IMG/VR virus record: IMGVR_UViG_3300042350_002797
Coordinates: 186,001-250,000 of that record
DNA: 64,000 bases
Reading direction: 5' to 3' (one strand)
DNA from: a virus
Positions within the stretch are counted from its first letter, which is position 1. Every line of letters begins with the position of its first letter. The notes below the pieces were generated by a model that ran no database searches, had not been told where the DNA came from, and was given only the letters and a program-made list of their open reading frames with translations. Of this stretch, positions 4,854 through 56,094 are shown one piece after another. The position numbers and the translations under genes are program-made.

Positions 4854-4870
4854 ATTTGATCCTTTCTAAT

Positions 4871-4905: not shown

Positions 4906-4909
4906 TTGA

Positions 4910-5852: not shown

Positions 5853-5876
5853 AATAAACTCCTATAATATACTTAC

Positions 5877-6362: not shown

Positions 6363-6371
6363 AAAGTTATT

Positions 6372-6602
6372 TTAATTAACTTTTATTAATTTGTCAAGAT
6401 CTTGATTTCGATTTTCTAATTGTTGTTGTAAAAGTTTTGATCTACGATTTCGAAGTTCGTCATTATATACATCTAATAACATTCTAATTTGATGTTGAAC
6501 ATTCGAGTTTCTTGTTTGCCAATATTTTTTACTAAGATCCAGAATTTTATTTTCTAATTCTGGATCTTTCAAATCGGCAAGATCGTCTACTAATGGATGC
6601 AT
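6372..6602 (-). CDS. Small helical phage protein
   Basis: The 76-residue, strongly helical protein is rich in Leu, Asp, Arg and Gln, with no membrane segment, and is probably a coiled coil (KLLQQQLENRNQDLDKL). Its ATG overlaps the stop of the upstream virion protein gene (TAATG), so it is probably translated with the structural genes. No family is recognised. A small assembly or scaffold-type accessory role is possible but not shown. Confidence 0.65.
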   Translation of the reverse strand: MHPLVDDLADLKDPELENKILDLSKKYWQTRNSNVQHQIRMLLDVYNDELRNRRSKLLQQQLENRNQDLDKLIKVN

Positions 6603-11761: not shown

Positions 11762-11770
11762 TATTTATCT
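11762..11770 (-). promoter_or_regulatory. Late-type promoter box
   Basis: The minus strand reads AGATAAATA; the TAA of the desaturase stop codon is part of the box. The ATG at 11745 is 16 bases downstream. Confidence 0.55.
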
Positions 11771-12469
11771 GGTTTTGGTTTTTGCTAATCTGAGCATTTG
11801 TAAAATTCGTATATAAAACCAGCCGATGTCAAATTCCCAACATTTTCTACTTAATTTAGGGCTGGCTGGATCTAAATGATGATTGTTGTGTAGCTCTTCA
11901 CCGCCAATTAATATACCCCAAGGACTGACATTGCGACTGTGATCCTTAGTTTCGCCGTTGCGATAGCCCCACCAGTGTCCAATGCCATTGATAAATCCAG
12001 CGGCCCAGAATGGAATCCAGATCATTTGTACACCCCACACTAGAAAACCCCACGGCCCAAATAATAACAAGTCTATGACTAACATTACAAGAATACCGTG
12101 GCGGTGATATCTAGTGTAGAATTTTTCAATACGATCTTTAGGAGTGCCCATGCCGTACTTTATGACCATGTTAGGATCTTTAGTTGCTTCGTGGTACAAA
12201 CTCCATCCGCCTAGTAGTAATCGTTTAATACCAAATACGTGTGGACTGTGTGGATCGCCTTCAACATCTGTGGTTTGATGATGTTTTCTATGTACTGCTA
12301 CCCATGCTTTAGTAGTCATTCCAGTTGTAAGCCATAGCCAAAATCGCATAAAATGATTGACCGCAGGATGAAATTCTACACTTCTGTGCGCTTGACAACG
12401 ATGTAGATACAAGGTAACACACATGATTGTGATGTGTGTTAGTAGTAATGTGATTAAAATTATTGTCAT
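11765..12469 (-). CDS. Membrane fatty-acid desaturase (acyl-CoA/ACP Delta-9 type)
   Basis: The 234-residue integral membrane di-iron desaturase has the three His boxes of the family: HRCQAH (23-28), HRKHH (60-64) and HNNHH (near 195). Hydrophobic segments lie between them. Such enzymes insert a double bond into a saturated acyl chain using O2 and an electron donor. It is one of four desaturases in the window, the only one sitting among fibre genes, and somewhat richer in G+C than the others. It follows a 17-residue ORF that looks like a broken fibre start, so the gene may have been inserted here. Confidence 0.93.
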   Translation of the reverse strand: MTIILITLLLTHITIMCVTLYLHRCQAHRSVEFHPAVNHFMRFWLWLTTGMTTKAWVAVHRKHHQTTDVEGDPHSPHVFGIKRLLLGGWSLYHEATKDPNMVIKYGMGTPKDRIEKFYTRYHRHGILVMLVIDLLLFGPWGFLVWGVQMIWIPFWAAGFINGIGHWWGYRNGETKDHSRNVSPWGILIGGEELHNNHHLDPASPKLSRKCWEFDIGWFYIRILQMLRLAKTKTR

Positions 12470-39828: not shown

Positions 39829-40416
39829 TTATCTTTTAGTGATAATTTCGTCAATTAGTCCATATTCTAATGCTTCTTGGGCACTCATGAACTTATCACG
39901 TTCCATGTCAGCAAGCAACTGTTCGTAAGTCTTGCCCTTGCTATTATGATTAACATAGAGTTCAGTTAAGCTCTTTTTCATTTTAAGAATTTCTTCAACT
40001 TGAATCTGCATGTCTGTAGCTTGTCCACGAGCACCACCGCTAGGTTGGTGAATCATGTGCCTAGCATTAGGAAGCATACGCCGCTTACCAGGAGCACCGG
40101 AGGTAGCCAAAAGACTGCCCATAGAACAGGCCTGGCCGATAACAATAGTAGCAACATCGGGTTTGATAAATTGCATTGTATCATAAATCGCCATACCAGC
40201 GGTAACGACACCGCCAGGGCTATTAATAAAAAACTGAATGTCATCATTGCCTTGACTTTCTAAAAATAATAGCTGTGCTACGATTATACTGGCGCTGTGT
40301 TCGTTAACATCAGTGTCTAACATAACAATACGATCTTTAAGTAGACGACTATAAATGTCATAGGCACGTTCGCCACGTGCTTCTTGTTCTACAACCATTG
40401 GTACTAAATGTGGCAT
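39829..40416 (-). CDS. clpP: ClpP-type ATP-dependent protease, proteolytic subunit
   Basis: The 195-residue protein has the serine protease ClpP motifs: [29 protein letters not shown] with nucleophile Ser98, and [12 protein letters not shown] with His123. A later Asp near 172 would complete the triad. The length and residue positions match bacterial ClpP. Phage ClpP-like proteins may serve as prohead proteases or act with host ClpX/ClpA on host proteins. It lies in an operon-like run with small genes upstream. Confidence 0.93.
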
Positions 40417-43153: not shown

Positions 43154-43375
43154 CTATAATCTGAAGGTAATTCTACCTTTGGTTAGATCGTATGGGCTAA
43201 CTTCTATTCGAACATTGTCACCCAAAATTACTTTGATTTTGTGTTGTTTAAGTTTACCGCCCATATAACAAATAAGTTCATGTGCAGTATCGTCTACTTT
43301 GACTTTAAAAGTACTATTAGGAAGAACATCGACGACTTCTCCGGTGAATTCTATCAGTTCACTGTTTTTAGCCAT
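43154..43375 (-). CDS. infA: Translation initiation factor IF-1
   Basis: The ATG at 43375 (MAKNSELIEF) gives a 73-residue protein, close to bacterial IF-1 (72). It shares the OB-fold pattern FTGEVVDVLPNSTFKVKVD, the HELICYMGGKLKQHKIKV segment and the ending VSPYDLTKGRITFRL, nearly identical to the PYDLSKGRI end of bacterial IF-1. IF-1 binds the ribosomal A site during initiation. An earlier in-frame TTG is less likely. It overlaps the AbrB-like gene by 8 bases and may bias host ribosomes toward phage mRNAs. Confidence 0.93.
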   Translation of the reverse strand: MAKNSELIEFTGEVVDVLPNSTFKVKVDDTAHELICYMGGKLKQHKIKVILGDNVRIEVSPYDLTKGRITFRL

Positions 43376-43561: not shown

Positions 43562-43590
43562 AGTATAAGTATAATTATATTTTTTGTCAA
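43562..43590 (-). promoter_or_regulatory. Sigma-70-type promoter of the AbrB-IF-1 pair
   Basis: TTGACA (43585-43590) and TATACT (43562-43567) have a 17-bp spacer on the minus strand. A plus-strand TATAAT (43570-43575) overlaps it and could serve the divergent acyl carrier protein gene, but it lacks a good -35 box. Confidence 0.75.
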
Positions 43591-43595
43591 TTAAA

Positions 43596-43844
43596 ATGAA
43601 TAACATAGAGCAGCAAATTTTACAAACAATTAAAGATATGAAGATCGGTAAAGACCAATCTATCACTATGCATTCAACTCTTAAAGAAGATTTAAATTTG
43701 GACAGTTTAAGCTTTACAGAATTGTTGATATCGTTAGAAGAACAGTTTGAAATCGAAGTGGACTTAGATGATCCAGAGTTACCAAAGCTTAATACATTAA
43801 ATGATATCAATGAAGTTATCTCAAAATTAATCAGTCTTAAGTAA
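43596..43844 (+). CDS. Acyl carrier protein 1
   Basis: The ATG at 43596 gives 82 residues. LNLDSLSFTELLISLEEQFE is the ACP helix-II signature, with Ser37 as the phosphopantetheine attachment site. Acidic residues after it (EIEVDLDDPELPKL) are typical. ACPs carry growing acyl chains as thioesters. It is divergent from IF-1 and overlaps the convergent desaturase by 18 bases. The AcpS gene that would activate it lies 1.3 kb away. Confidence 0.9.
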   Translation: MNNIEQQILQTIKDMKIGKDQSITMHSTLKEDLNLDSLSFTELLISLEEQFEIEVDLDDPELPKLNTLNDINEVISKLISLK

Positions 43845-44612
43845 TTTTATCACCCAATAAGTCGGGTCTATTTCCCACCAACGCTTTCCATAGTTGATGT
43901 TTGTAGGATCTCCGTGATGATTATTGTGCCAACTTTCCCCTAACGTAATAGGCCAAATCCAAACAATATTTACACTGTCGTCTTTAGTTTCGAGATTTCT
44001 ATAACCTAGTTTCTTAATGTGAGTCACACTTGTTTGTATATTAAAAACTTGATAGGTAATGAATGCAGGTAGTATTACAGCATATAACCAAAGATTTATA
44101 TCAATTAATAAAAAAGCGGCATGACTGATTAAAAAGATTTTAGCGTAATTTTTATGAAAGAAAATACAATCTTTGTCTTTAAGCAAATCTACAATATGCT
44201 TTGTATTATATTGTCCTTCCTTTAGTTTAAACATCCACCAGATATAACTGTGCCAAAACCCATGATGAGGGCTGTGAGGATCTTTATCTTCATCACTATA
44301 TCTATGATGATAACTTCTGTGTATTGTGGCCCATTGAATAGGACTACCTTGTCCTGATAAATTTCCAAACCAAAGAATTATTATCTTTACCCATCTTTTT
44401 ACTTTAAAACTTTTGTGACTGAACAATCTATGATAGCCGGCGCTTACTCCAATAATTTTAATACAAATGAAACCAATAATATAGTATGCCCACCAATAAG
44501 GAGTATAATCTACAAACAGATTATAAATGCTGTATAATCCTAAAATATGGATAGGAATCACACCACACCAAAGATTACTAAATGATATAATGTTTTTAAA
44601 AATTTGTTTCAT
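43827..44612 (-). CDS. Membrane fatty-acid desaturase 2
   Basis: I use the ATG at 44612 (MKQIFKNIISF), which overlaps the upstream stop (ATGA), giving 261 residues. His boxes are HRLFSH, HRSYHH and HNNHH, with four to five membrane segments as in acyl-CoA or acyl-lipid Delta-9 desaturases. A bi-iron site inserts a double bond into a C16-C18 acyl group. It ends the block AcpS-GNAT-like-desaturase, in which each start overlaps the previous stop, tying it to the acyl-carrier chemistry. Confidence 0.92.
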   Translation of the reverse strand: MKQIFKNIISFSNLWCGVIPIHILGLYSIYNLFVDYTPYWWAYYIIGFICIKIIGVSAGYHRLFSHKSFKVKRWVKIIILWFGNLSGQGSPIQWATIHRSYHHRYSDEDKDPHSPHHGFWHSYIWWMFKLKEGQYNTKHIVDLLKDKDCIFFHKNYAKIFLISHAAFLLIDINLWLYAVILPAFITYQVFNIQTSVTHIKKLGYRNLETKDDSVNIVWIWPITLGESWHNNHHGDPTNINYGKRWWEIDPTYWVIKLLKTD

Positions 44613-45151
44613 TTGTGTTTCCAGGAATTCAATAAAGAGTCGTCGCCGTGATATATGATATGTTGCCAACAACTATCATCATCACTATTTGGGCAAGTTT
44701 GATATTTATAGTTGTTGGTATCAAACGTCAAGTCAGAATATTTTTTAAAATCTCTTATTAGCATACTTTGCCAATGGTTGTATTGTCTGCTTACAAATAC
44801 TAATTTTGAATCAGTGTTATTTTGTAACCATTTAACTTGTTCTGACACCATTAAACAGATTTGAGGACTGACAAATTTAGTAATGGGAATTCTCTTTATT
44901 TTCCACATTCTATTCAAAATTCTATAAACTCTATCTGGCCAGCAATCTCTTCGTATAATACTGCTACAATGAGTAGGGTCTCCATTTTCGTCGAACGCTA
45001 TACTAAAAGCTGCTGATCTTTCAAAAAGATACTTGTTGTAATTTACTGCTAATGGATCTGTTTTGTTATTGTGCTGATGTTGTCTTAAATTTTCGAAAAG
45101 TTTGTCTAAGTACGAGTCGGATCCCGGAGTCCAAATTTTAACACTAATCAT
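44609..45151 (-). CDS. GNAT-like acyltransferase, tentative
   Basis: The 180-residue protein has an alternating pattern suggestive of a GNAT fold. FSIAFDENGDPTHCSSIIRR could be strands 2-3, QICLMVSEQVKWLQNN a helix, and LVFVSRQYNHWQSMLIRDFKK the region after strand 5. The V/Q-x-x-G-x-G/A coenzyme A loop is not obvious, so this is tentative. It lies between AcpS and a desaturase with overlapping frames. A transferase moving an acyl group from ACP would fit the setting. Confidence 0.45.
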   Translation of the reverse strand: MISVKIWTPGSDSYLDKLFENLRQHQHNNKTDPLAVNYNKYLFERSAAFSIAFDENGDPTHCSSIIRRDCWPDRVYRILNRMWKIKRIPITKFVSPQICLMVSEQVKWLQNNTDSKLVFVSRQYNHWQSMLIRDFKKYSDLTFDTNNYKYQTCPNSDDDSCWQHIIYHGDDSLLNSWKHK

Positions 45152-45507
45152 GTTACTTCCAAAATAGCACTGGCTATGAGATAGTCTCGTTCGTGACTAA
45201 AACTAAGATGACAAGTTGGTCCTGCTAATTGTTCTTTAAACTGTACTGTTGGACGACCTTCGTGATTGGATTTAATTTTAATATTTTTCCAAGTTACTTT
45301 ATCTCGTATTCCTTTTCCAAAAGCCTTGGCAATGGCTTCTTTTCCTGCCCATATTTTAGCCAAATATTGAAATTTTAATTTGTGGTTTTTGAATTCTTCT
45401 AATTCTTCATCTGTGCAAATACGCATTGCAATTTTAGTTAGTCGTAGATCGTTCATCATATGAAAACGATTTAAATCTACAATATCAATTCCGTGTCCTA
45501 ATATCAT
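45148..45507 (-). CDS. acpS: Holo-[acyl-carrier-protein] synthase
   Basis: The 119-residue protein opens MILGHGIDIVDLNRF with the Mg-binding Asp8, has WAGKEAIAKAFGKGI with Glu57, and ends with CHLSFSHERDYLIASAIL. These are the three AcpS signatures. AcpS moves 4'-phosphopantetheine from CoA onto the ACP serine. The two ACPs on either side are its obvious substrates. Its promoter's -10 box ends 7 bases before the ATG, so the mRNA appears leaderless. Confidence 0.95.
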   Translation of the reverse strand: MILGHGIDIVDLNRFHMMNDLRLTKIAMRICTDEELEEFKNHKLKFQYLAKIWAGKEAIAKAFGKGIRDKVTWKNIKIKSNHEGRPTVQFKEQLAGPTCHLSFSHERDYLIASAILEVT

Positions 45508-45513
45508 ACAGTA

Positions 45514-45542
45514 ATTATACTTTTTTTAAATCTGTGTGTCAA
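45514..45542 (-). promoter_or_regulatory. Consensus sigma-70 promoter of acpS
   Basis: TTGACA (45537-45542) and TATAAT (45514-45519) have a 17-bp spacer. The ATG at 45507 is the seventh base after the -10 box. Confidence 0.85.
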
Positions 45543-45550
45543 TAGCCTGG

Positions 45551-45556
45551 TAAATA
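45551..45556 (+). promoter_or_regulatory. Late-type promoter of the acyl operon
   Basis: GGTAAATACA lies 14 bases before the ATG at 45571, which has GGAGG as ribosome-binding site. It shares a 60-bp gap with the divergent acpS sigma-70 promoter. Confidence 0.5.
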
Positions 45557-45570
45557 CACCGGAGGATATT

Positions 45571-46380
45571 ATGTTTATAGGACACATTAACGACTTAGAA
45601 ATCGGCCAAGCCAAATCGATTGAAGTTCTTGAAAACAAAAAAGTTTTAATCAATGAAAATGGTGTATACAAAATAGGTAGTAATATTTGCCCTCATCAAA
45701 ATAGCAGAATTATTTCCGGAACACGTACAGAACTTAGATGCCAGTACCACGGATGGTCGTGGAATATGGATGGATCACCTAAAGATTCAGGTGCTAGTAC
45801 TATGTGTAATAAGCAAAAATTACATATGAAAACAGCGTATGAATATAAAGGTCTTTTATTCGAAGAAGAATTAGATTTTTCAATGCTCGAAGAATTAAGT
45901 TTTGAAAATTTAAGATTAGAAGAATTTAGAATCGATACGGTTAATGCTGATCCAAAAATTAGTATGGATATATTTTTAGACGTCGATCATATTCCAATCG
46001 TTCATAACGGAGTCTATGATTTATTAGGAATCGAAGGTAAAGCAGATGTTAAATGGAGTTATGCAGACTGGGGAAGTATGCAGACTGTTAGTGACGAATC
46101 GGGAAAAGTTATTGCTCGTTGGATCGCTATCTATCCTTATACTATGATAGAGTGGCAAGATAAAGCATTGTTTATAACACGGTCTTTCAATGAAACACAA
46201 ATGGCAGTATGGAAATATAAAGATATAACCGAGTCAGAAGAAAACTATAGAACTAATGAAAGTATGTGGGAAAATGCATTTTCACAAGATAAAGCTCAAG
46301 CAGAGCAAATGGTAAGATTTCCTTCTGCTAATTTAGAAGAAGCCAAAATTCATTACAGAGAGTGGTTAAGTAAAAAATGA
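45571..46380 (+). CDS. Rieske-type non-heme iron oxygenase
   Basis: The 269-residue protein has a Rieske [2Fe-2S] site: CPHQ (Cys40, His42) and CQYHGWSWN (Cys57, His60). A catalytic domain follows with DVDHIPIVH (Asp137, His140, His145), the DxxHxxxxH iron motif of ring-hydroxylating and demethylating oxygenases. It is shorter than typical alpha subunits (about 350-450). Such enzymes hydroxylate or demethylate small molecules with O2; no reductase partner is visible. It is the first gene of the 6-kb operon to 51571, and its stop overlaps the next start (ATGA). Confidence 0.88.
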   Translation: MFIGHINDLEIGQAKSIEVLENKKVLINENGVYKIGSNICPHQNSRIISGTRTELRCQYHGWSWNMDGSPKDSGASTMCNKQKLHMKTAYEYKGLLFEEELDFSMLEELSFENLRLEEFRIDTVNADPKISMDIFLDVDHIPIVHNGVYDLLGIEGKADVKWSYADWGSMQTVSDESGKVIARWIAIYPYTMIEWQDKALFITRSFNETQMAVWKYKDITESEENYRTNESMWENAFSQDKAQAEQMVRFPSANLEEAKIHYREWLSKK

Positions 46381-47285
46381 AATTGTTGTATAATGATTAC
46401 ATGCGTAGTTCAGGAAATGGGTCAACTTGGTCAGTAGAAATAGACCCTCCTACTAGATCAGTTAAAAGTTATTTCGAAGAAACTAAAATTGCTTGTGGGT
46501 TAATATATGAGCAAAGAACTGCTCCTTTACAACTATGTTATAGTGGAGGCCTTGATAGTGAATATGTTCTAAGTACGTTATTATACTTAGGCATACCAGT
46601 AGAAGTATTCATTATGAATACTCAATACAATTATCATGAAACCAAATATGCATTTAAATTTTGTGAATCAAAGAACATTACTCCTACCATAGTTGATCTA
46701 GATTATGATAAATTTGTAGAATCTGGTAAACTAATAGAAATAGCAGAATCCATGTGTTGCGCACAGTGGCAAATACCTGCTAATATGTGGCTAGTGGAAC
46801 AATTAACAGGTACAGTTATAATTGGTAATGATCCTCCACATATGAAGTTAAACAAAGAAGATAATCTTTGGTATCTCGATGAAGAGGAAGTTATTCATAG
46901 TCAATTTAATTTTTGGAGAAATCGAGATATACTTGGAACACCTTTTCTGTTAAGCTATACTCCTGAATTAATGTTAAGTTTTTTATTAGATCCGACTATG
47001 GAAAAATTAGCTAATCATGGATTTCCAGGTAAATTAGGAACTAACAGTACTAAAGTTCATGTGTTTAATAGAGACAGCAATTTTAATTTAGAACAACGTG
47101 TTAAACAACACGGATATGAAAATGCTGAAAAAAGTTTGATTTTTAATCATCCTGACATTCAAACTGTGATTAGTTGGAAAGATCGCTGGGGCGGAACTAG
47201 CGACCATCAGTATCATACTGTAGTAGAAAAACTCAGTTCGGGAAAATCTTCTAAAGCTTTTTCAGTATGTCCTTCAAATTCTTAA
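46377..47285 (+). CDS. PP-loop ATPase (asparagine-synthetase-C-like)
   Basis: The 302-residue protein has LCYSGGLDSEYVL (residues 53-65), the PP-loop that binds ATP in the N-type ATP pyrophosphatase superfamily. It also has IPVEVFIMNTQYNYHETKYA and later IIGNDPPH, matching the asparagine-synthetase-like or queuosine/thiouridine branch. Such enzymes adenylate a carboxylate or a tRNA base. No glutaminase domain is present, so ammonia or another amine would have to be supplied. In this operon it may activate an acyl or amino acid carboxyl group, which is inference. Confidence 0.78.
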   Translation: MKLLYNDYMRSSGNGSTWSVEIDPPTRSVKSYFEETKIACGLIYEQRTAPLQLCYSGGLDSEYVLSTLLYLGIPVEVFIMNTQYNYHETKYAFKFCESKNITPTIVDLDYDKFVESGKLIEIAESMCCAQWQIPANMWLVEQLTGTVIIGNDPPHMKLNKEDNLWYLDEEEVIHSQFNFWRNRDILGTPFLLSYTPELMLSFLLDPTMEKLANHGFPGKLGTNSTKVHVFNRDSNFNLEQRVKQHGYENAEKSLIFNHPDIQTVISWKDRWGGTSDHQYHTVVEKLSSGKSSKAFSVCPSNS

Positions 47286-47288
47286 TAT

Positions 47289-47747
47289 ATGAATCAATTA
47301 ACTAACCAAGAAGTTCTTTCAATATTGCCTCATCGTTATCCATTTCTGATGATTGATAAAGTTATCGAATACTCCGACACAGATCTAATAGCAGTGAAAA
47401 ATTTCACAATCAATGAGCCATATGTACAAGGACATTTTCCAAACAATCATATAATGCCAGGTGTAATGATGGTAGAATCTATGGCACAAGCCAGCACAAT
47501 TTTAGGGTTCAAGTACATAGAAAAGAATGCAACTATGGAACAAATTTTGTCACAATTTTCTGGAGGATTTTTGTTTGTAGCTGCTGATGAAGTGAGATTT
47601 AAACGAGTTGTGCATCCTGGAGATCAATTAAAAATATTTTCTAAATTGACTAGATGTGCTAGAACTTTATTTGAATTTGAAACTAGAATAGAAGTTGATA
47701 GGATTATAGTTGCTTCGGCCAAGTTAAAAGCCACTGCTGGTATTTAA
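47289..47747 (+). CDS. FabZ-type 3-hydroxyacyl-ACP dehydratase
   Basis: The 152-residue hot-dog-fold protein has LPHRYPFLMIDKV, GHFPNNHIMPGVMMVESMAQ with His49 and Glu63 as catalytic pair, and DEVRFKRVVHPGDQL, all FabZ signatures. It removes water from 3-hydroxyacyl-ACP during chain elongation. Length and motifs match bacterial FabZ, so activity is likely. It sits between a PP-loop protein and ACP 2 in the operon with a 3-base gap. Confidence 0.94.
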   Translation: MNQLTNQEVLSILPHRYPFLMIDKVIEYSDTDLIAVKNFTINEPYVQGHFPNNHIMPGVMMVESMAQASTILGFKYIEKNATMEQILSQFSGGFLFVAADEVRFKRVVHPGDQLKIFSKLTRCARTLFEFETRIEVDRIIVASAKLKATAGI

Positions 47748-47756
47748 TATTAAATA
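47741..47756. promoter_or_regulatory. Palindrome with internal late-type box before ACP 2
   Basis: TATTTAATATTAAATA is a perfect 16-bp palindrome; on the plus strand its TAAATA (47751-47756) lies 17 bases before the ATG at 47774, which has AGGAGG. It may be an internal late promoter. Confidence 0.45.
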
Positions 47757-47773
47757 GCTATATAGGAGGACGT

Positions 47774-48142
47774 ATGGATTTAGAAAATTGGACACCATTG
47801 ACTACGCAAGAAATAGAAAAGAAATTTATTGGAATGATTAATGACTATCTAAAATTAAATTTAGAATATCCTGTAGATCCAAATCTTTCTTTAAAAGATT
47901 TGAGATTAGTTGGGGATACGAAAGTTATTGAACAATTACAAGATGTTGATGAAGAATCATTAGAAATTATAAAAAAGAATTTTGAAATCGATAGCATAGA
48001 TATATTGGAATTAGTAATTCAGATCGAAGAAGAATTTGGCGTAGTAATTGACGATAAAGATGTGGCCACTCTACTTAGATGGGAAGATCTTATTGGTTAT
48101 ATAGCAGATAGTCAAGACCCTAAAAAAATGAAACAAAAATGA
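47774..48142 (+). CDS. Acyl carrier protein 2, with N-terminal extension
   Basis: The 122-residue protein carries NFEIDSIDILELVIQIEEEF, with Ser74 as the phosphopantetheine site, and the acidic helix that follows (GVVIDDKDVATLL). The first 65 residues are an extension absent from ordinary ACPs, predicted helical and acidic. ACPs with extensions are common in polyketide-like systems. Its stop overlaps the ketosynthase start (ATGA), so it is likely that enzyme's partner. Confidence 0.85.
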   Translation: MDLENWTPLTTQEIEKKFIGMINDYLKLNLEYPVDPNLSLKDLRLVGDTKVIEQLQDVDEESLEIIKKNFEIDSIDILELVIQIEEEFGVVIDDKDVATLLRWEDLIGYIADSQDPKKMKQK

Positions 48143-49317
48143 AACCTGTTTATATAGTTGATTATGCAGTAATAGATACAATAGGATTTGATATAGAATC
48201 GAACTATAAAAATCTTACTCTATTAGCTAAAGGTCCTCAGACCTGCACTAGATACGATGTAACAGAGTATCCTCACATACTCTGTACTAAAGGTTATGAA
48301 ATTTCTCAGTATGATGGACGTAATATTTTTTCAAAGTTGCATAACGATTTATCTGATCAGTTATTATCGAAAGCTACTATTCCATCAGATTCTGCCGTAA
48401 TAGTGAGTGCGTTTGCTCATTCAGGCAACGAAGTAAGAAATGATTTTGATAACTCATTCCGAGGCGGAATGAGCCGATTTAGTCCTACAAAGCTTTTTCT
48501 AAATAATAATGATTTAATGAGTGCTAACATAGCGAAAAAATTAAAATTAGAAGGATTCAGCTCTGGGGTAATGGCAGCGTGTAGTTCTAGTATGTTCAAC
48601 TTACACTATGCTTTCACTTGCATACAATCAGGAGTGATTTCGTCCGCTGTAGTTGGAGCTATAGAAACTCCAATACATCCTTCTGTGCAATATTACTGGC
48701 AATGTACTAGTGCAATTTCTACTCGAGATGGAGGAATCTGTAAACCATTTGATAAGAACAGAGATGGGTTTGTTCAAGCCGAGGGAGGAACATTATGGTT
48801 AATATGCGATGAAGAAACATTGAAAAAATATAATTTAACTCCTAAAGCTAAAATTCTTTCTATAGTGCTGTCTTCTAAATGCTATGATACTGCTACTATG
48901 ACTGCTCACGATAAAACAGGAAAGAGTCAAATTGATACAATTAATAAAGCACTAACTATTGCAAATAAAAAATCGGAAGATATAGCTTTTTTTAATGCAC
49001 ATGCTACTAGTACTTTGATAGGAGACGATATTGAATTAGACGTTTTTCAGCAAAAATTTAAAGACGTTGATATTCCGTGTGTTAGTTTTAAAGGTTATAT
49101 CGGCCACACTATGAGTGCAAGTGGTATGGTTGAATCTGCTTACGGATTAGAAGCATTAAAAAATCAGTATCTGCATCCAAACTACGATTTAACAGATCCA
49201 ATAAGCGACGATCCTAGATTAATTACAAAAGCGATTCCTATCAAAGGAGATACATTTATTAAAGCTTCTTTTGGGTTTGGGGGCAGAACTGCTATAGCAG
49301 TATTTCAAACAATTTAG
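48139..49317 (+). CDS. Beta-ketoacyl-ACP synthase (FabF/FabB-like)
   Basis: The 392-residue condensing enzyme has an intact Cys-His-His triad: Cys148 in MAACSSSM, His288 in FFNAHATST and His323 in YIGHTMSASG. KPFDKNRDGFVQAEGGT (202-218) and the glycine-rich end ASFGFGGRTAIAVF also match. KAS enzymes join malonyl-ACP to an acyl-ACP. The N-terminal 90 residues are weakly conserved, so it is divergent from housekeeping FabF and may accept an unusual chain. It is coupled to ACP 2. Confidence 0.92.
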   Translation: MKPVYIVDYAVIDTIGFDIESNYKNLTLLAKGPQTCTRYDVTEYPHILCTKGYEISQYDGRNIFSKLHNDLSDQLLSKATIPSDSAVIVSAFAHSGNEVRNDFDNSFRGGMSRFSPTKLFLNNNDLMSANIAKKLKLEGFSSGVMAACSSSMFNLHYAFTCIQSGVISSAVVGAIETPIHPSVQYYWQCTSAISTRDGGICKPFDKNRDGFVQAEGGTLWLICDEETLKKYNLTPKAKILSIVLSSKCYDTATMTAHDKTGKSQIDTINKALTIANKKSEDIAFFNAHATSTLIGDDIELDVFQQKFKDVDIPCVSFKGYIGHTMSASGMVESAYGLEALKNQYLHPNYDLTDPISDDPRLITKAIPIKGDTFIKASFGFGGRTAIAVFQTI

Positions 49318-49327
49318 GTTTCAATAT

Positions 49328-50161
49328 ATGTACAATCATACTTCAGATACAAATACTGACCCGAGACATTTGTTGCGGTTGAAAATGGAAAAAATCGATG
49401 GATCAAGTTTTATGACAGACGGACCTCCGGCTGGTTACGACTTACCTACCGAATACATTGAAAAAATGAAAGTTATCAGTGAAAAGTATAAACCCATACA
49501 ATGGCTACCGTTGGATATACCTAAAATTGATATAGGCGATCCTAAAGAATTTTTAGAAATTTACGATAGTCAACGTTATCCTGTTGTAAGAATTAAACCT
49601 GATGTAGCAGAACCATGGAGTAAGGAAGATCATCCTTTTAAGCAAGATAGTAGCTGGAATAAAGCAGCATTTAATGGTCTTCATCTATATCAAAATCCTA
49701 TGATTGATCTTAAGCTAAGTACCTTTTACGGAAAAGTTTATCTTGGAGATATTCCTGTTTTCAAAAGGATTATTGAACAAGTGCATGATTATATTCCTCA
49801 TCACCCTTTTATCAGTATATTCATCTGGGAAAGTTTATCGACTATTATTCCTCATAGGGATGCCGCATCATATTGGAAATGTCCTACAGATTTTAGATCT
49901 ATGTTATATGATGAAAATGATAAACCTACTTTGTATGTAGCAGAAGACGGATCAGATGAACCAATCTATATTGACCTTCCTGAGGATACTAATACTTTTT
50001 GTTGGAGCAATGGAAAAATGGTTCATGGATCTGATTATCATGGAAAAAGAAAATTACTACTAATTATGACAGGAATACAGCATACAAGAAAATCTGTAGA
50101 GTTGTTTGATCGCAGTATTGCAAAGTATAAAGACAAATTAAATTATAAATTAGAAATGTAA
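49328..50161 (+). CDS. 2OG-oxygenase-like (aspartyl/asparaginyl-hydroxylase-like) protein 1
   Basis: The 277-residue protein has IIPHRDAASYW, an HxD pair, and FCWSNGKMVHGSDYHGKRKLLL, with a distal His and basic residue, in the double-stranded beta-helix pattern of Fe(II)/2-oxoglutarate hydroxylases related to aspartyl/asparaginyl hydroxylase. Such enzymes hydroxylate side chains or carbons. It lies right after the ketosynthase and its paralog follows with a one-base overlap (TAATG). It may hydroxylate the acyl product or a protein. No metal-binding test is possible here. Confidence 0.72.
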   Translation: MYNHTSDTNTDPRHLLRLKMEKIDGSSFMTDGPPAGYDLPTEYIEKMKVISEKYKPIQWLPLDIPKIDIGDPKEFLEIYDSQRYPVVRIKPDVAEPWSKEDHPFKQDSSWNKAAFNGLHLYQNPMIDLKLSTFYGKVYLGDIPVFKRIIEQVHDYIPHHPFISIFIWESLSTIIPHRDAASYWKCPTDFRSMLYDENDKPTLYVAEDGSDEPIYIDLPEDTNTFCWSNGKMVHGSDYHGKRKLLLIMTGIQHTRKSVELFDRSIAKYKDKLNYKLEM

Positions 50162-51030
50162 TGGATCTAAGTATCTTACAAAAAAAAATTGAAGAGGCGA
50201 AAGTCTCTCAATTTGATTATTCAAAATTAAACACTAGTTACACAAAACTAGGTCCTTCCTTGCATAAAAATGCAAGTTTTATTCAGGCTTCATGGTCACC
50301 CGAGATACCTATTTCTGAATCTTATCTAAAAAAAATAAAGTTATTAGAAGAAAAATATGAATCTATTTTTTGGTTACCTTTAGATATACCTAAAATTCAA
50401 ATAAGCGATTGGAAACTTTTTTTAGAAATTTGGGAAAGAGAAAAAATACCTATTGTTAAAAAAAACGATCCAGATTTTATTCAAGAATTTTACGGAATGC
50501 ATATTGCATCTAACCCATTAATTGACTTTTACTGTCATGATTTGTACGATTCAAAAGGTAAGATGATAGAAAATCAAATTTCGGAAAAAAGCGGATTTAC
50601 TCAAGGAAGAGACAATATAGGTTTATACACTAAAAAACTTTATAAAGATAGATTTTTTAATTCTTTAGTTAGTAATATTATGGCAACTTTTCCTATTAGT
50701 GTTATTAATACTATATCTATATTCGAAGTTATGAATGATGTAGCACCTCATAGGGAGGAAACTTGGTACTGGAAATGTCCTACTGAATTTAGAATAAATC
50801 TTTATGATGAAAATAAAACCCCTGTATTTTACGTAACGGATATCGAAAGCGGTGAAACGAGATATATAGATCTACCTCAAGATACAAACAGTTTTTGTTG
50901 GAGTAATGGAACTAAATTATACGGGGGTGATTATCACGGAAAAAAGAATTTTCAAATAGTTGTTAACGCGATATGGGATACAGCAAAGTTAGATAATTTG
51001 CTAAGTACAAGTTTAAAAAAATACGGATAA
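50161..51030 (+). CDS. 2OG-oxygenase-like protein 2, paralog with altered metal site
   Basis: The 289-residue protein is about the same length as the preceding one and matches it in CPTEFRINLYDENK and FCWSNGTKLYGGDYHGKKNF. The predicted iron ligands differ: HRD is HRE, and the distal MVHG is KLYG, so the His is Tyr. It may be inactive or use the pair as a heterodimer. The two probably arose by tandem duplication; the overall identity is modest, so the duplication is old. Confidence 0.68.
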   Translation: MDLSILQKKIEEAKVSQFDYSKLNTSYTKLGPSLHKNASFIQASWSPEIPISESYLKKIKLLEEKYESIFWLPLDIPKIQISDWKLFLEIWEREKIPIVKKNDPDFIQEFYGMHIASNPLIDFYCHDLYDSKGKMIENQISEKSGFTQGRDNIGLYTKKLYKDRFFNSLVSNIMATFPISVINTISIFEVMNDVAPHREETWYWKCPTEFRINLYDENKTPVFYVTDIESGETRYIDLPQDTNSFCWSNGTKLYGGDYHGKKNFQIVVNAIWDTAKLDNLLSTSLKKYG

Positions 51031-51031
51031 A

Positions 51032-51571
51032 ATGGAATACTGGAAATATTTAGAATTAGATAATGTAGAAAAGATTCAAGAAAAAACTTTAACGTTTATT
51101 CGAGAAAAAACAGATTTTATGGATAAATCTAAATATAAAGGTCCATATATTAATTTGCCCTTTTTCGATTACAATAAGGATGTTCCAGAGCTTCAAGAAA
51201 GTTTTTTAAATTATGGGTTGTATGTCACTGGTATTCATATATTTTTAATGTGGAATAACACCGATTGTATTCCCCATAAAGATTATACAGATGCCATTGG
51301 TAGAGTGAATATCCCTATATTAAATTGTCAAGGATCTAAAACCATATTTTATAAAAATTTAAAATCTAAAAGATTAATGTTGCCTACTAGGTCTCCATTT
51401 TATATGACTATAAACAAAGATTACGAAGAAGTTGGCGGAGTTGAAATAGATCGTCCTACTATTGTCAGAATAAGTGAAGGACATACCGTAGTAATGAATG
51501 ATAAAAGTTTTCCTAGAATTACACTTACTGTTTCAACAATTCCTGATGTAGGATTATTATTGGACGATTAA
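51032..51571 (+). CDS. 2OG-oxygenase-like protein 3 (short form)
   Basis: The 179-residue protein has CIPHKDYTDAIGRVNIPILN, an HxD pair in a PHxD context, followed by TIFYKN and a C-terminal RPTIVRISEGHTVVMNDKSF with a distal His and SFPRITLTV with Arg. This matches the small 2OG hydroxylase-like form, similar in layout to the proteins at 60502 and 61073. It is the last gene of the 45571 operon and its stop overlaps the convergent ABM-like gene by four bases. Function unknown. Confidence 0.65.
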   Translation: MEYWKYLELDNVEKIQEKTLTFIREKTDFMDKSKYKGPYINLPFFDYNKDVPELQESFLNYGLYVTGIHIFLMWNNTDCIPHKDYTDAIGRVNIPILNCQGSKTIFYKNLKSKRLMLPTRSPFYMTINKDYEEVGGVEIDRPTIVRISEGHTVVMNDKSFPRITLTVSTIPDVGLLLDD

Positions 51572-51891
51572 ATTTCGCTATCTTCCAAAGCAAAATCAAT
51601 TCCGTATTGATTCGTTATAATTTCAAAGTAATTCCAAATAAATTCGTTCTCCTCCTTAGAGTAAAAATTATTAAATTCTTCTTTACTTTCAAAAATTACA
51701 GAACTATATAATATTGTTCCTTGAGGTTGTTCGACAAATTTAGTTTCCTTTCTTATAAATCCAGGAACTATATACAATGCATTTAGATAAGGTTCATACA
51801 TCGAATGTGAACGTATATCTCGTATGAAATTCAATAACCGTTCTTTATCTGATGCATCTCTTGACTTTAAAATTGCAGTTCTGCTAAACAT
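51568..51891 (-). CDS. Small ABM-like protein 1
   Basis: The 107-residue protein looks like a ferredoxin-like alpha/beta monooxygenase-like domain: LLNFIRDIRSHSMYEPYL, GFIRKETKFVEQPQGTILYS and VIFESKEEFNNFYSKEENEFIW. Such proteins either cleave aromatic substrates without cofactor or just bind ligand. It is coupled to an upstream GNAT-like gene (9-base gap). A second ABM-like protein is on the other strand at 52549, and the two share a pattern of Trp/Glu-rich helix plus strand. Confidence 0.5.
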   Translation of the reverse strand: MFSRTAILKSRDASDKERLLNFIRDIRSHSMYEPYLNALYIVPGFIRKETKFVEQPQGTILYSSVIFESKEEFNNFYSKEENEFIWNYFEIITNQYGIDFALEDSEI

Positions 51892-51900
51892 AATTTTCCT

Positions 51901-52497
51901 TTAATCTTCAATTTTAAACGCTGTTCGGAATCCAATTCTTATAGGCCACGACCTATTTAATATCATATTTTTTTGATAATCATATTTTGGAATAGAATTC
52001 GACTCTAATACATGTTCAGTTATATAGTGATATTTAGATAAATTATAATCTTTTTTGAAATTTTTAGAAAATCTAAGAAGTCTATCTATTCCTCCAATCG
52101 AACGTACACCCAAGTGTTCTGCATTATAAGCAAAATGCCATCTATTTAATTTTCTTTTATTTTCCATTTCGTCGAAAATAATTTGATCAATGTCTTTAAA
52201 CATGTCGATCATTTCAGTATTATTAATTAAAAATCCTCTATTTTCGAATAAATGGTGTGCCCAACACCATGCCGGTGCCGTAGAAAATTCTTTCAAGATT
52301 ATTGCCCCTACTAGATTATTTTTGTTAAATATTCCAACATTAAAAAATAACTTATCGTTTAACATTGTTTCTGTAGACTGTATTAAGTAGTCTTGATACT
52401 GATGATCGGTATATCCGTTAAATACTTGAGGGTTTTTAACAAATAAATTTTTTAAAATACTTTGGTCTTCTTTTTGTAAAATTTTAATATTAAACAT
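51901..52497 (-). CDS. GNAT-like acetyltransferase, tentative
   Basis: The 198-residue protein reads like a GNAT fold. FFNVGIFNKNNLVGAIILKEF resembles strands 2-4, and the middle and C-terminal parts have helices with RSIGGIDRLLRFSKNFKKDY. The coenzyme A loop is not certain. It and the 180-residue protein at 44609 are both tentative GNAT-like transferases in this region. Its start codon lies in a short dyad at 52495-52515, with a TAAGTA box in the loop, like the start-site hairpins of other genes. Confidence 0.5.
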   Translation of the reverse strand: MFNIKILQKEDQSILKNLFVKNPQVFNGYTDHQYQDYLIQSTETMLNDKLFFNVGIFNKNNLVGAIILKEFSTAPAWCWAHHLFENRGFLINNTEMIDMFKDIDQIIFDEMENKRKLNRWHFAYNAEHLGVRSIGGIDRLLRFSKNFKKDYNLSKYHYITEHVLESNSIPKYDYQKNMILNRSWPIRIGFRTAFKIED

Positions 52498-52515
52498 GAT
52501 AACTTACTTATCATG
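52495..52515 (-). promoter_or_regulatory. Start-site hairpin with variant late-type box
   Basis: CATGATAA (52495-52502) and TTATCATG (52508-52515) form an 8-bp inverted repeat that contains the ATG at 52497. On the minus strand the box reads GATAAGTAAG instead of GATAAATA. Confidence 0.45.
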
Positions 52516-52548
52516 TTCAAAAAAAAAATAATTTAATTAGGAAAATGT

Positions 52549-52881
52549 ATGTATATAAGAAGTTATAAGTTAGTATGTCAAGGTCAACCTAAAATGGATC
52601 GATTTCGAATAGTCACTACACAGGGGTTAAAATTCAATCAATTAATGAAAAATTACAATGTTAAATTTCAAGGGTTTGTTGAAGCACGTGATGATCACTA
52701 TGATAACGAACGTTGGGAAATTACCACTGTATGGGAATCAAAGTCAGATTGGGAAAAAGCTATGCAACATCCTATGCGAAAAATGTTCTGGTCTCGATTC
52801 GAAATGGAGGCGTTAAAGCATGATATTGATTTGACTATAACAGACAGTCTCGGTGAAACAATTAAACCTTTAGAAATTTAA
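52549..52881 (+). CDS. Small ABM-like protein 2
   Basis: The 110-residue protein has VCQGQPKMDRFRIVTTQGL, FQGFVEARDDHYDNERWEITTVW and ESKSDWEKAMQHPMRKMFW. The strand-plus-helix pattern of a ferredoxin-like monooxygenase (ABM) domain resembles that of the protein at 51568. His/Arg residues in the central sheet could line a ligand pocket. It begins a plus-strand group with the unknown gene at 52892 and the UbiB-like kinase. AGGAAA precedes the ATG. Confidence 0.5.
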   Translation: MYIRSYKLVCQGQPKMDRFRIVTTQGLKFNQLMKNYNVKFQGFVEARDDHYDNERWEITTVWESKSDWEKAMQHPMRKMFWSRFEMEALKHDIDLTITDSLGETIKPLEI

Positions 52882-52891
52882 GGAATATGAT

Positions 52892-53287
52892 ATGGAAAAA
52901 TTTATAAAAATACTGACAGTAACACAAACTGCTCCTGATATCGATGGCGAAATTAATGTGATAAAAACTTTAGAGACATCTGTTGCATGGCACCAATTAT
53001 ATTACTGTCATCCTCATCCATCTAATTATATCGACAATGTTACAGTTAATTTAAGTGAAGATAAATCGTATGCCGAGTTTCACGCTGATCATAATTCTTT
53101 GGAAACATATAACGACTGGTTTAAAACATTTGGAGAAATTTCAGAAGAGTTATATAAAGAATGTATCGATGAGTTAGAAACTGAAGGACTAATATTCGAA
53201 AGATTCTTTTCTGATGTAGATAATGCTCAATTAGAAGTGTTAGGCAATCATGCTCAACCTTTGAAAAATTTTATAAGCAAAATTTAA
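52892..53287 (+). CDS. Protein of unknown function (131 residues)
   Basis: The 131-residue acidic protein has no recognised domain. It contains WHQLYYCHPHPSNYIDNVTV and FHADHNSLETYNDWF, clusters of His and aromatic residues that could bind metal, and a C-terminal helix. It is between an ABM-like gene and the UbiB-like gene, with short gaps and the same strand, so it probably shares their transcript. Confidence 0.6.
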   Translation: MEKFIKILTVTQTAPDIDGEINVIKTLETSVAWHQLYYCHPHPSNYIDNVTVNLSEDKSYAEFHADHNSLETYNDWFKTFGEISEELYKECIDELETEGLIFERFFSDVDNAQLEVLGNHAQPLKNFISKI

Positions 53288-53290
53288 TAG

Positions 53291-54589
53291 ATGTTAAGAA
53301 TTATCGATGTTCTTCAAGTTATTGTAAAATATAATCTTGAGGAACATCTATTTCAAAATTCAAATTTCAAATTACTTTCAATCGCAAAACTTTCTTTTAA
53401 GAATCTATTCGGCATAACAACTCCGCACGGAACTTTTGAATATCGATTACGTTGTGCGCTAGAGGAACTAGGACCAGTTTTTATCAAATTTGGACAAATG
53501 TTATCATCTAGACCTGATTTAATTCCTGCAAGTATTGTTAAAGAATTAAAATTTCTTAGAGAGTCAGTAAAGCCTTTTTCTGAACATGATGTAGAAAAAA
53601 TAATAGAATTAGAATTAAAAAACTCTACAGAAAACATATTTAAAAAGTTTGATAAATCTCCTATTGCTGCGGGTAGTGTAGCGCAAGTTCATTATGCTGA
53701 ACTACACACTGGTGAGTTAGTTGCGGTTAAAATATTAAGGCCTAAAATAGAATGTATTATTAAAAAAGACATAAAGTTATTTAGAAATATTTTACAATTA
53801 ATTTTTTTGTATAATAAAAATTTAAAAAAAATTAAGATAGAAAAAATTTTAGATGAGTTATCAAATAGTTTAATGTTAGAACTAGATTTATTGATAGAAT
53901 CTGATCATATGAAAAAGTTTGCATCTAATATGAAACATGTTTCATATGTATGTGTTCCTAAAGTATATGACAAATATAGTACAAAAACTATTTTAGTGAT
54001 GGAAAGAATGTTTGGAATTCCTATTGATCAAAAACAACAACTTATTGATCAAGGTGTTGATGTTAGGATAGTAGTTCAACAAGGTGTCGAAGTAATGATG
54101 TTACAACTATTCCGAGACGGATTTTTTCATGCAGATCAACATCCCGGAAACTTATGGATTAAACCTGATGGATCTCGAATTTATTTAGATTTTGGAATAG
54201 TTGGGTCTATTACAGAGGCAGATAGAAAATCATTATTGCAAATTCTTTTCTTTTTATATTCTAAAAATAATAAAAAAACGATTGAAAAATTAATAGATGC
54301 CGGATGGTTAAACAAAAATCAAAACTTAGACCAATTAGAAGTCGATTTAATTGATATAGCACAGCTATTTGTTAATCGAAAACAAAAAGATTTTTCAATT
54401 GGTAATGTATTAAATAAATTTTTCAATTTAGTAGAAAATTATCAAGGCAATGTGCCTTATCAATTTACATTATTGGTAAAAACAATTTTAGTAACTGAAG
54501 GTATAGTAAAGCAACTAACACCTGATCTAAATATTCAAAGTATAGCAGAGCCGGTTCTTTTAAAGTTTTTTACTAAATCTTTTACTTAA
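53291..54589 (+). CDS. UbiB/ABC1-family atypical kinase
   Basis: The 432-residue protein has the family N-terminal KxGQ motif (FIKFGQMLSSRPDLIP), the Ala-rich nucleotide loop AAGSVAQVH, VAVKILRP with the ATP-binding Lys, FFHADQHPGNLWI and YLDFGIVG. UbiB/COQ8 proteins act in ubiquinone synthesis and lipid metabolism as ATPases or kinases. It lacks the C-terminal transmembrane pair of E. coli UbiB (546 residues), so membrane contact may be through the conserved KxGQ helix. It is located next to the acyl cluster. A role in handling lipid-like intermediates is inferred. Confidence 0.85.
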   Translation: MLRIIDVLQVIVKYNLEEHLFQNSNFKLLSIAKLSFKNLFGITTPHGTFEYRLRCALEELGPVFIKFGQMLSSRPDLIPASIVKELKFLRESVKPFSEHDVEKIIELELKNSTENIFKKFDKSPIAAGSVAQVHYAELHTGELVAVKILRPKIECIIKKDIKLFRNILQLIFLYNKNLKKIKIEKILDELSNSLMLELDLLIESDHMKKFASNMKHVSYVCVPKVYDKYSTKTILVMERMFGIPIDQKQQLIDQGVDVRIVVQQGVEVMMLQLFRDGFFHADQHPGNLWIKPDGSRIYLDFGIVGSITEADRKSLLQILFFLYSKNNKKTIEKLIDAGWLNKNQNLDQLEVDLIDIAQLFVNRKQKDFSIGNVLNKFFNLVENYQGNVPYQFTLLVKTILVTEGIVKQLTPDLNIQSIAEPVLLKFFTKSFT

Positions 54590-55339
54590 GAGAAATCCTA
54601 TATAACCCTCTATATCTATTTCCCACCAACGATGTTGAAGTATCAATCGTCCAGGATGAGCATGATGATTATTGTGCCATCCGAACCCCATACCTAACCA
54701 ACCTAACCATAAATTATTCGTAGTTGCATCGTCTGTAGAAAAATTTCTATAACCTGATCTATGACACCAATAGTTAACTGCACCTAGTCTAAAAAAATCC
54801 ACACAGTAGGCCAAACAGTACATCATGAAGTACACCGGATCAATCAAAACAAGTGTAAAACAAAATGTAAAAATTATTTTATAATGATGTCTATGAAAGA
54901 AAAGATAAAACGGGTCACGCAACATCTGTACAGCTAATTTTTTAGCATACTTGTCTTGTAAATATTCTTGTTCGTTATTTCCCTGAGGAAATGTCCAAGC
55001 ATAGAATACGTAGAACCAACTGTTATACATTGGACTATGAGGATCGTTAACTTTATCTGCTCTAAGATGATGAGCTTTATGCTGTATGACCCAAAATGTC
55101 ACTGGACCAATAGCGCCTAAAGTAGATAAAAATCCTAATAGCCATTTTACAGGTTTATAGGTTTCGAACTGACCATGAGCAAAATATCTATGTGCTGCTA
55201 CACCATTGCCTACTACACCAATGACAAACCAAATTACTAAGAAACTGATCCAATGATTAGGTAGTTCCCATATAGCAATTAGTCCCCATATATGAAAAGG
55301 TAGAAATACTACCCAAAAGTTAAATCCATATTTTTTCAT
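54560..55339 (-). CDS. Membrane fatty-acid desaturase 3
   Basis: The 259-residue protein has His boxes HRYFAH, HKAHH and HNNHH with four to six hydrophobic segments. It resembles acyl-CoA Delta-9 type desaturases but differs in the second box, which lacks the usual Arg. It overlaps the upstream desaturase 4 (ATGA), so the two are translated together. Its 3' end overlaps the convergent UbiB-like gene by 30 bases. Confidence 0.92.
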   Translation of the reverse strand: MKKYGFNFWVVFLPFHIWGLIAIWELPNHWISFLVIWFVIGVVGNGVAAHRYFAHGQFETYKPVKWLLGFLSTLGAIGPVTFWVIQHKAHHLRADKVNDPHSPMYNSWFYVFYAWTFPQGNNEQEYLQDKYAKKLAVQMLRDPFYLFFHRHHYKIIFTFCFTLVLIDPVYFMMYCLAYCVDFFRLGAVNYWCHRSGYRNFSTDDATTNNLWLGWLGMGFGWHNNHHAHPGRLILQHRWWEIDIEGYIGFLLSKRFSKKL

Positions 55340-56094
55340 TGTTTAATCAATCTAATAATGTAAGCAGGTATATCAAACTCCCACCAACGTTCTTGATTGT
55401 TCCAAGCATATGGTTTAGCGTGATGTGTATTATGCCACCCTTCTCCTAATGTGATAAGATTGGCAATCCAACTATTACGGCTTTGATCTTTGACGTCCGG
55501 ATAAGGTCTATAACCATGTCTATGTGCTATAACAATAATAGCACTAGTGCTGTGTAAGCAAAGACAAGCAGGTATAGCAAACACATATATTATCATTAAT
55601 GGATCATAAGCAAATAAAATTGATATCCAAATTAGAATTACCAGCAAATATTTTTTGTGTAGTTCTCGTTGAAAGACATTTTCACGCATATCACGAACTA
55701 GTTTTAAATCTAATCTAGGCATATTCCATATACCGAACCATGCTCGAAAATTTCCCAGTATATAAGGACTATGAGGATCTCCAGGACGTTCTGCTGATCT
55801 ATGATGCTGTCTATGTACAGCTACCCAAGCTAATGGACTACCTACCACAGTAATAACACCTATAAGACTAAACAGTTGCTCCCAGAATCGATGTGTTTTA
55901 AAACTACGATGACTGAGTAGTCTATGGTAACCAATGTTAATACCAAGTACACCTATGATCCAATAGGTTACTAAGGACACAAATAATAAACTATATTCAG
56001 CAATGTAGATAGCATATATTATACCTATTGTAGCAATTACATGATTAATTACTTGTAGTGTTCTTACAGTTTGATTATGTGTCATTTTTATCAT
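55336..56094 (-). CDS. Membrane fatty-acid desaturase 4
   Basis: The 252-residue protein has HRLLSH, HRQHH and HNTHH boxes, and hydrophobic stretches typical of acyl-lipid desaturases. The start could be the ATG at 56094 or 56085 (MTHNQTV); both lie in the end of the upstream gene, and no strong ribosome-binding site decides. Adjacent desaturase 3 overlaps its stop. Two desaturases in tandem could make different positions or chain lengths. Confidence 0.92.
   Translation of the reverse strand: MIKMTHNQTVRTLQVINHVIATIGIIYAIYIAEYSLLFVSLVTYWIIGVLGINIGYHRLLSHRSFKTHRFWEQLFSLIGVITVVGSPLAWVAVHRQHHRSAERPGDPHSPYILGNFRAWFGIWNMPRLDLKLVRDMRENVFQRELHKKYLLVILIWISILFAYDPLMIIYVFAIPACLCLHSTSAIIVIAHRHGYRPYPDVKDQSRNSWIANLITLGEGWHNTHHAKPYAWNNQERWWEFDIPAYIIRLIKQ

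Follow-up and report, generated by a model that had tools for sequence, protein, structure and literature searches.

The window analysed here is a stretch of 64,000 nucleotides (positions 186,001 to 250,000) of the IMG/VR virus record IMGVR_UViG_3300042350_002797, which is 364,554 bp long in total. It carries a cassette of 12.5 kb with about 19 genes (window 43,584-56,094), among them genes for two acyl carrier proteins (ACPs), a holo-ACP synthase, a beta-ketoacyl-ACP synthase (KS), a 3-hydroxyacyl-ACP dehydratase and a set of tailoring proteins (Table 1). Coordinates are positions in the window unless they are given for the whole genome or for an L-numbered locus. An initial annotation, made from the sequence of the window, had described these genes as a near-complete ACP-based pathway. 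All reading frames that it named are real and lie where it placed them. Those with carrier, activating, condensing and dehydrating functions exceed the curated Pfam cut-offs, and NCBIfam models name both FabZ and AcpS.

The PP-binding domains of ACP1 and ACP2 score above the curated Pfam cut-off of 20.8 bits, and the serine of their DSL or DSI motif is invariant, while neither protein reaches the NCBIfam cut-offs of the AcpP equivalogs. The ATG at 43596 is a more likely start of ACP1 than the TTG at 43584. AcpS scores 86 bits with TIGR00516, an equivalog_domain model with a cut-off of 59.8, and the metal ligands Asp8 and Glu57 are invariant. FabZ exceeds the equivalog cut-off of NF000582 (146.4 vs 113) and remains just below that of TIGR01750 (140.3 vs 155); its catalytic His49 and Glu63 are invariant. 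The KS matches both ketoacyl-synt domains (N-terminal PF00109, 74.0 bits; C-terminal PF02801, 70.4 bits) and, with C148, H288, H323 and K318 present in nine phage KSs, belongs to the beta-ketoacyl-ACP synthase superfamily. It is not a FabF (KAS II) proper, as it scores 158 bits with TIGR03150 for a cut-off of 493.75 and the phage KSs form a clade of their own. The catalytic residues were thus named correctly at the outset (Ser37 of ACP1, Ser74 of ACP2, His49/Glu63 of FabZ, Cys148/His288/His323 of the KS), and diverged relatives keep them.

Table 1. Genes of the cassette, with their positions in the window and the evidence for each assignment.
Gene and product	Position	Strand	Evidence
ACP1, acyl carrier protein (Ser37 in DSL)	43596..43844	+	Pfam PP-binding 28.8 bits; DSL Ser invariant in 3 phages
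DES1, membrane fatty acid desaturase (HRLFSH / HRSYHH / HNNHH)	43827..44672	-	Pfam FA_desaturase 5e-16; His boxes
GNAT-1, GNAT-fold acyltransferase-like	44609..45151	-	AlphaFold2 (AF2) pLDDT 93; PDB matches to GNATs including the acyl-homoserine lactone (AHL) synthase TofI; 8/8 KS cassettes
AcpS, holo-ACP synthase	45148..45507	-	Pfam 6.6e-20 (71.7 bits); TIGR00516 above cut-off; D8/E57 invariant
Rieske non-heme-iron oxygenase-like (CPH...CQYH; DVDHIPIVH)	45571..46380	+	Pfam 6e-12; motifs invariant; homologue also matches Ring_hydroxyl_A
PP-loop ATP-dependent ligase-like (SGGLDS)	46377..47285	+	AF2 pLDDT 94; Foldseek: asparagine synthetase, LarE, beta-lactam synthetase
FabZ, 3-hydroxyacyl-ACP dehydratase	47289..47747	+	Pfam 3e-24 (85.6 bits); NF000582 above cut-off; H49/E63 invariant
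ACP2, N-terminally extended ACP (Ser74 in DSI)	47774..48142	+	Pfam 24.5 bits; profile match to ACP1; 8/8 cassettes
KS, beta-ketoacyl-ACP synthase (C148-H288-H323-K318)	48139..49317	+	Pfam 2e-20/2e-19; triad invariant in 9 phage KSs
OG1, 2-oxoglutarate (2OG)-oxygenase-like	49328..50161	+	HxD...H kept; family alignment
OG2, OG1 paralogue	50161..51030	+	HxE...Tyr, distal His lost
OG3, 2OG-oxygenase-like	51032..51571	+	HxD...H...R kept; wider phage homologue matches Asp_Arg_Hydrox PF05118
ABM1, small ABM-like (tentative)	51568..51891	-	8/8 cassettes; weak PDB match; related to ABM2
GNAT-2, putative N-acyltransferase (tentative)	51901..52497	-	Weak GNAT matches; 8/8 cassettes
ABM2, small ABM-like (tentative), highly conserved	52549..52881	+	dN/dS 0.02; weak PDB match
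X131, small protein, fold not assigned to any family	52892..53287	+	Homologues in 6/8 cassettes
UbiB/ABC1-type atypical kinase	53291..54589	+	Pfam 9e-72 (241.6 bits); KxGQ, DFG kept; 4/8 cassettes
DES2, membrane desaturase	54560..55339	-	Pfam 1.6e-13; His boxes
DES3, membrane desaturase	55336..56094	-	Pfam 5.9e-18; His boxes

Several of the accessory labels were upheld. Pfam recovers the three desaturases (FA_desaturase, 59.7, 51.5 and 66.0 bits), the UbiB-like kinase and the Rieske oxygenase (45.7 bits, with C40, H42, C57, H60, D137, H140 and H145 invariant). The PP-loop protein is below the Pfam threshold, but has the SGGLDS motif and a confident model of AsnB/beta-lactam-synthetase/LarE type, and GNAT-1, which has no Pfam match, has a confidently predicted GNAT fold. 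The labels of GNAT-2 (sequence match to GNAT with E 0.04) and of the mutually related ABM1 and ABM2 (no Pfam match, best ABM-like PDB matches with E 0.37-1.6) are weak. The three 2OG-like proteins of the window have no Pfam match; OG1 and OG3 keep the expected HxD...H, whereas OG2 has lost the distal His. The OG2 orthologues of two related phages (L004 and L016) also carry Glu for Asp and Tyr for the distal His ligand, and the protein may not be a working oxygenase. AHL synthesis of the LuxI type was considered for GNAT-1: the fold is compatible (TofI, E 3e-4, with AAC(6') and SpeG ranking above it), but inspection by eye found none of the conserved residues of LuxI.

The cassette lies in the genome of a tailed jumbo phage. 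The same record encodes a portal protein (1.5e-113), a major head protein (1.5e-103), a baseplate wedge homologue, tail fibres, a ligase and an endonuclease. A set of 17 tRNA genes adjoins the cassette, phage tRNA genes being 2 kb away. The ends of the record overlap by 126 bp, behind a 45-base fold-back at the left end (L222:1-171, read from the end sequences), which is probably an assembly artefact at a near-closed genome end; the shared ends hint at such near-closure. As claimed at first, the reading frames overlap by ATGA or almost abut, with overlaps at AcpS/GNAT-1 (45148-45151), Rieske/PP-loop (46377-46380), ACP2/KS (48139-48142) and DES2/DES3 (55336-55339). Fatty-acid genes are typically bacterial and the G+C content of the cassette is below that of the genome (31.4% vs 36.3%), as one would expect if bacterial DNA had been joined to a phage contig during assembly. 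Such a chimera is nevertheless hardly conceivable, since a second IMG/VR record (3300042402_003111) has the same junctions, with 99.995% identity over 21,176 bp across both cassette edges, and since seven other phages carry the cassette and a further one has the same site without it. The KS is also far from every bacterial KS that we found, and the search for bacterial relatives of the PP-loop protein gave none.

These seven further phages (L004/L105, L016/L107, L103/L112, L104, L106, L108 and L109) emerged from searches that used the PP-loop protein or a KS alignment as query, and their KSs are 53-58% identical to that of the window. Nine families are common to all eight cassettes, the window counted: AcpS (identified by tblastn in L108), GNAT-1, FabZ, ACP2, KS, a 2OG-family protein, ABM1, ABM2 and GNAT-2. 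The gene order, which the initial annotation had proposed to look for in other phage contigs, is largely the same among the eight. In most of them, AcpS adjoins GNAT-1 on the strand opposite to FabZ-ACP2-KS, and ABM1-ABM2-GNAT-2 follow downstream. Other genes vary in their presence: PP-loop (7/8), ACP1 and DES1 (6/8 each), Rieske and UbiB (4/8 each). Two cassettes, those of L004 and L109, have in addition a radical SAM protein and a short-chain reductase (SDR, with TGGxxGxG and YxxxK motifs) that is a candidate ketoreductase, and L004 has an extra desaturase as well.

The cassette occurs in at least three genomic contexts among the eight phages. It is beside a metallophosphoesterase gene in five (the window, L004, L016, L106 and L108), adjoins glycosyltransferase genes in L103 and L104, and adjoins nrdB in L109. 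The gene for translation initiation factor IF-1 at its left edge in the window (43154-43372, minus strand, Pfam 3.9e-19) has homologues next to the L106 and L108 cassettes. In another phage, L024, an IF-1-like gene and the R189 gene are separated by about 170 bp that hold no cassette, and the same pair is about 12.7 kb apart in the window. The several contexts and this cassette-free site imply that the cassette is mobile among phages or has been repeatedly lost. Further out, L024 has neighbouring proteins (4389-7941) in which we noticed by eye the CxxxCxxC-like motifs that are typical of radical SAM enzymes; they are perhaps biosynthetic cargo of a different kind in the same region. A ClpP protease gene also lies near the cassette of the window (39829-40416, minus strand, 1.1e-76).

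The mosaic content, the several insertion sites and the cassette-free site beside other cargo are what one would expect of a hotspot where unrelated auxiliary metabolic genes gather at permissive sites and few of them cooperate; the genome also has 2OG-like genes and desaturases outside the cassette. We regard this as improbable, because nine families remain together in 8/8 phages and keep their order across different sites, and because AcpS, ACP and KS make sense only jointly.

The core genes are under strong purifying selection. The ratio of non-synonymous to synonymous substitution rates (dN/dS) between L103 and L104 is 0.02-0.05 for FabZ, ACP2, KS, ABM2 and the PP-loop protein; the comparison of the window with L004 is mostly saturated at synonymous sites. 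The initial view that the cassette is not decaying is thereby supported. The protein identity between L103 and L104 is 94% for the KS and 51-52% for DES1, GNAT-1 and ACP1, a difference which suggests that the tailoring block ACP1-DES1-GNAT-1 has been exchanged between phages.

A maximum-likelihood tree that includes 60 bacterial KSs places all nine phage KSs on one side of one branch (support 98/99). Eight of them form one clade on a very long branch; the position of the ninth, from L120, is unsure because its own branch is long. The best bacterial matches to the phage KSs have at most 33% identity. A search of genome contigs for the PP-loop protein gave no bacterial relative, and the neighbourhoods of 80 bacterial KS loci contain none of the GNAT, ABM, PP-loop and 2OG families. 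A search without positive control for GNAT-1 in 399 genomes of one bacterial order, that of a Sutterella genome, gave no homologue. The PP-loop and OG2 proteins have no match in INPHARED. The KS has 27 matches there (23-28% identity), nearly all in unannotated, short or draft-type "phage" records, which we judged to be bacterial DNA.

The gene set is real, phage-encoded, conserved and unusual, and we class it as phage auxiliary biosynthesis from known enzyme families. We favour the reading, with a probability of about 0.6, that the region is a phage ACP-dependent biosynthetic gene cluster, predicted from its gene content to produce, in the course of infection, a specialised acyl compound that is unsaturated and oxidised. 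The co-occurrence of the genes suggests that they function jointly in one pathway, and we infer its steps from family membership. AcpS would put phosphopantetheine on ACP1 and ACP2, and the KS would condense an acyl group on ACP2 with malonyl-ACP of the host. The 3-keto group would be reduced by a host ketoreductase (or by the phage SDR in two relatives) before dehydration by FabZ. Membrane desaturases, one of which is gene-paired with ACP1, may then add double bonds, and the Rieske and 2OG-type enzymes may oxidise the chain. The PP-loop enzyme could activate a carboxylate with ATP for an amide or similar bond, and the GNAT-fold proteins could release the chain by transfer to an amine. The phages keep the condensing core and exchange tailoring genes, which makes a bulk membrane lipid seem less likely than a product with a target inside the infected cell or among competing bacteria.

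Several observations weigh against this biosynthetic cluster. No SDR was found anywhere in the 364-kb genome, a search for a 2Fe-2S ferredoxin found none, and no acyltransferase, thioesterase or AMP-ligase could be assigned to loading or release. The transcription units are convergent and opposed, which by themselves do not prove one pathway. ACP1 and Rieske are missing from L106 and L108, and Rieske and PP-loop from L109; hence, these genes are not essential to the core. OG2 is without one metal ligand, and family evidence is weak or lacking for GNAT-2, the ABM proteins and X131. The description as a near-complete pathway therefore has to be narrowed: the ACP-based gene set stands, but malonyl loading, enoyl reduction and release are unassigned. 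The ketoreductase that had been noted as missing is indeed absent from the genome of the window, but two relatives have an SDR inside their cassettes, so that some phages encode part of this step themselves.

The cassette shares its families with bacterial type II fatty acid synthesis (FabF, FabZ, AcpP, AcpS), its FabZ and AcpS reaching equivalog cut-offs with their catalytic residues kept. It is not a complete synthase of this type: FabG is absent from the genome, and the enoyl reductase, FabD and FabH are absent from the Pfam matches of the cassette, no genome-wide search having been made for these three. Its KS, in a clade of its own, fails the FabF cut-off, and oxygenases, GNATs and a PP-loop protein join the set. 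The same likeness would fit a remodelling of membrane lipids, where KS, FabZ and ACP boost fatty-acid elongation, the desaturases act on lipids, and the chain length and unsaturation of host phospholipids are altered. The closest families of the KS and FabZ are indeed those of ordinary fatty acid synthesis (FabF and FabZ), the genome has six desaturases (three in the cassette and three elsewhere), and viromes are known to contain desaturases and fab genes singly (PMC10653327). Yet remodelling leaves the Rieske, 2OG, PP-loop, GNAT and ABM-like genes and the conserved GNAT/ABM core unexplained, the KS is far under the FabF equivalog cut-off and outside all sampled bacterial KSs, and the core persists as tailoring genes are exchanged. 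We consider it unlikely, though less so than a cargo hotspot.

Small bacterial type II polyketide-like clusters, such as that of cispentacin (Amc), use a stand-alone ACP, a KS and a FabZ-like dehydratase to build a tailored small acid. Models of AmcB, AmcE and AmcF are among the matches of ACP1, ACP2, FabZ and KS, all below cut-off. The cassette differs from the Amc cluster by its desaturases, Rieske and 2OG proteins and by being phage-borne.

Single lipid genes were said at the outset to be known in phages, but not a set like this one, and the open-access literature is consistent with this: we found in it no comparable phage ACP gene set (subscription papers and preprints were outside its scope). 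A fabG-acpP-fabF trio is reported in predicted roseobacter prophages (PMC8224337); it shares ACP and KS genes with the cassette, and the passages of that report which describe it mention no AcpS, FabZ or tailoring set. The trio is possibly host DNA at a prophage edge, because its genes are arranged as in the E. coli fab operon. ACPs are called rare in phages in a study of Eneladusvirus jumbo phages (PMC7760394), where, unlike here, the ACP is a lone gene, near a spanin-like gene and without a pathway. Viromes contain fabG/F/Z genes (PMC10653327). The lipid desaturases of cyanophages cited in PMC8224337 and the FA_desaturase of Pelagibacter phage Mosig are single auxiliary genes, uncoupled from ACP, KS and AcpS, unlike those of the cassette.

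The PP-loop protein raises another alternative, the placing of an acyl group on DNA, tRNA or protein, where the PP-loop protein would have a role like that of TilS or asparagine synthetase and the GNATs would serve as transferases. Its profile weakly matches the tRNA-modifying TtuA, MnmA and TilS, and phage tRNA genes are 2 kb from the cassette. However, PP-loop proteins are functionally diverse, and the top fold matches of this one are asparagine synthetase, LarE and beta-lactam synthetase. Membrane desaturases are ill-suited to nucleic-acid modification, and tRNA clusters are common in jumbo phages. Modification of macromolecules is thus very unlikely.

If the biosynthetic cluster is what it appears to be, a conserved set with AcpS, two ACPs, KS, FabZ and tailoring enzymes means that a virus could run, and not merely boost, acyl assembly. 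This raises the question of which compound a phage makes for its own use: a membrane agent, a signal, a weapon against competitors or a cofactor. The cassette is also a potential source of new enzymes, with its cassette-free relatives as a natural comparison.

A wider search with the Rieske protein gave 32 loci, many with adjacent Rieske and PP-loop genes plus desaturases. Some have further components: an ACP in L122-L125, an AcpS-like gene in L124 and L125, and a KS in L120. L122 encodes an ATP-grasp protein along with several proteins of radical SAM/B12 type. In L015, which lies in a 524-kb contig, radical SAM, Asp/Arg-hydroxylase-like and PP-loop genes are accompanied by neither an ACP nor a KS. 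An ACP was found in 10 of the 17 records searched, counting the wider Rieske/PP-loop phages and the KS-cassette phages together. There is a sizeable, though less than even, chance that the cassette is a distinct viral biosynthetic class. In this reading, a phage lineage would have its own class of carrier-protein clusters, with a virus-specific KS clade, to make and diversify specialised acyl metabolites during infection, and the wider Rieske/PP-loop/desaturase/radical-SAM islands of other large phage contigs would share the same chemistry. The KS of L120 (14115-15329, minus strand) is a second, deeply diverged phage KS, 28% identical to that of the window and amid several desaturase-like reading frames; no ACP was found in this 73-kb record.

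Elsewhere in the genome, an IscU-like protein (NifU_N, 2e-51) and an A-type Fe-S carrier (genome 280301-280991, L233:12301-12991, minus strand) would fit the demand of the Rieske and radical SAM enzymes. Proteobacterial IscU sequences share up to 80% identity with the IscU-like protein, and that of one planctomycete 28%, a weak hint at a proteobacterial host. Two adjacent radical SAM genes, one with a sub-threshold B12-binding match, lie at genome 261525-264445 (L232:12525-15445, minus strand), and a third is at about 27.5 kb. Two desaturases are directly beside a heme oxygenase (PF01126, 1.8e-19; genome 269402-271463, L233:1402-3463, minus strand), followed by ClpS, Hsp20 and DnaK as read by eye. 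The sixth desaturase (window 11765-12469, minus strand, Pfam 3.4e-19) lies downstream of tail-fibre genes.

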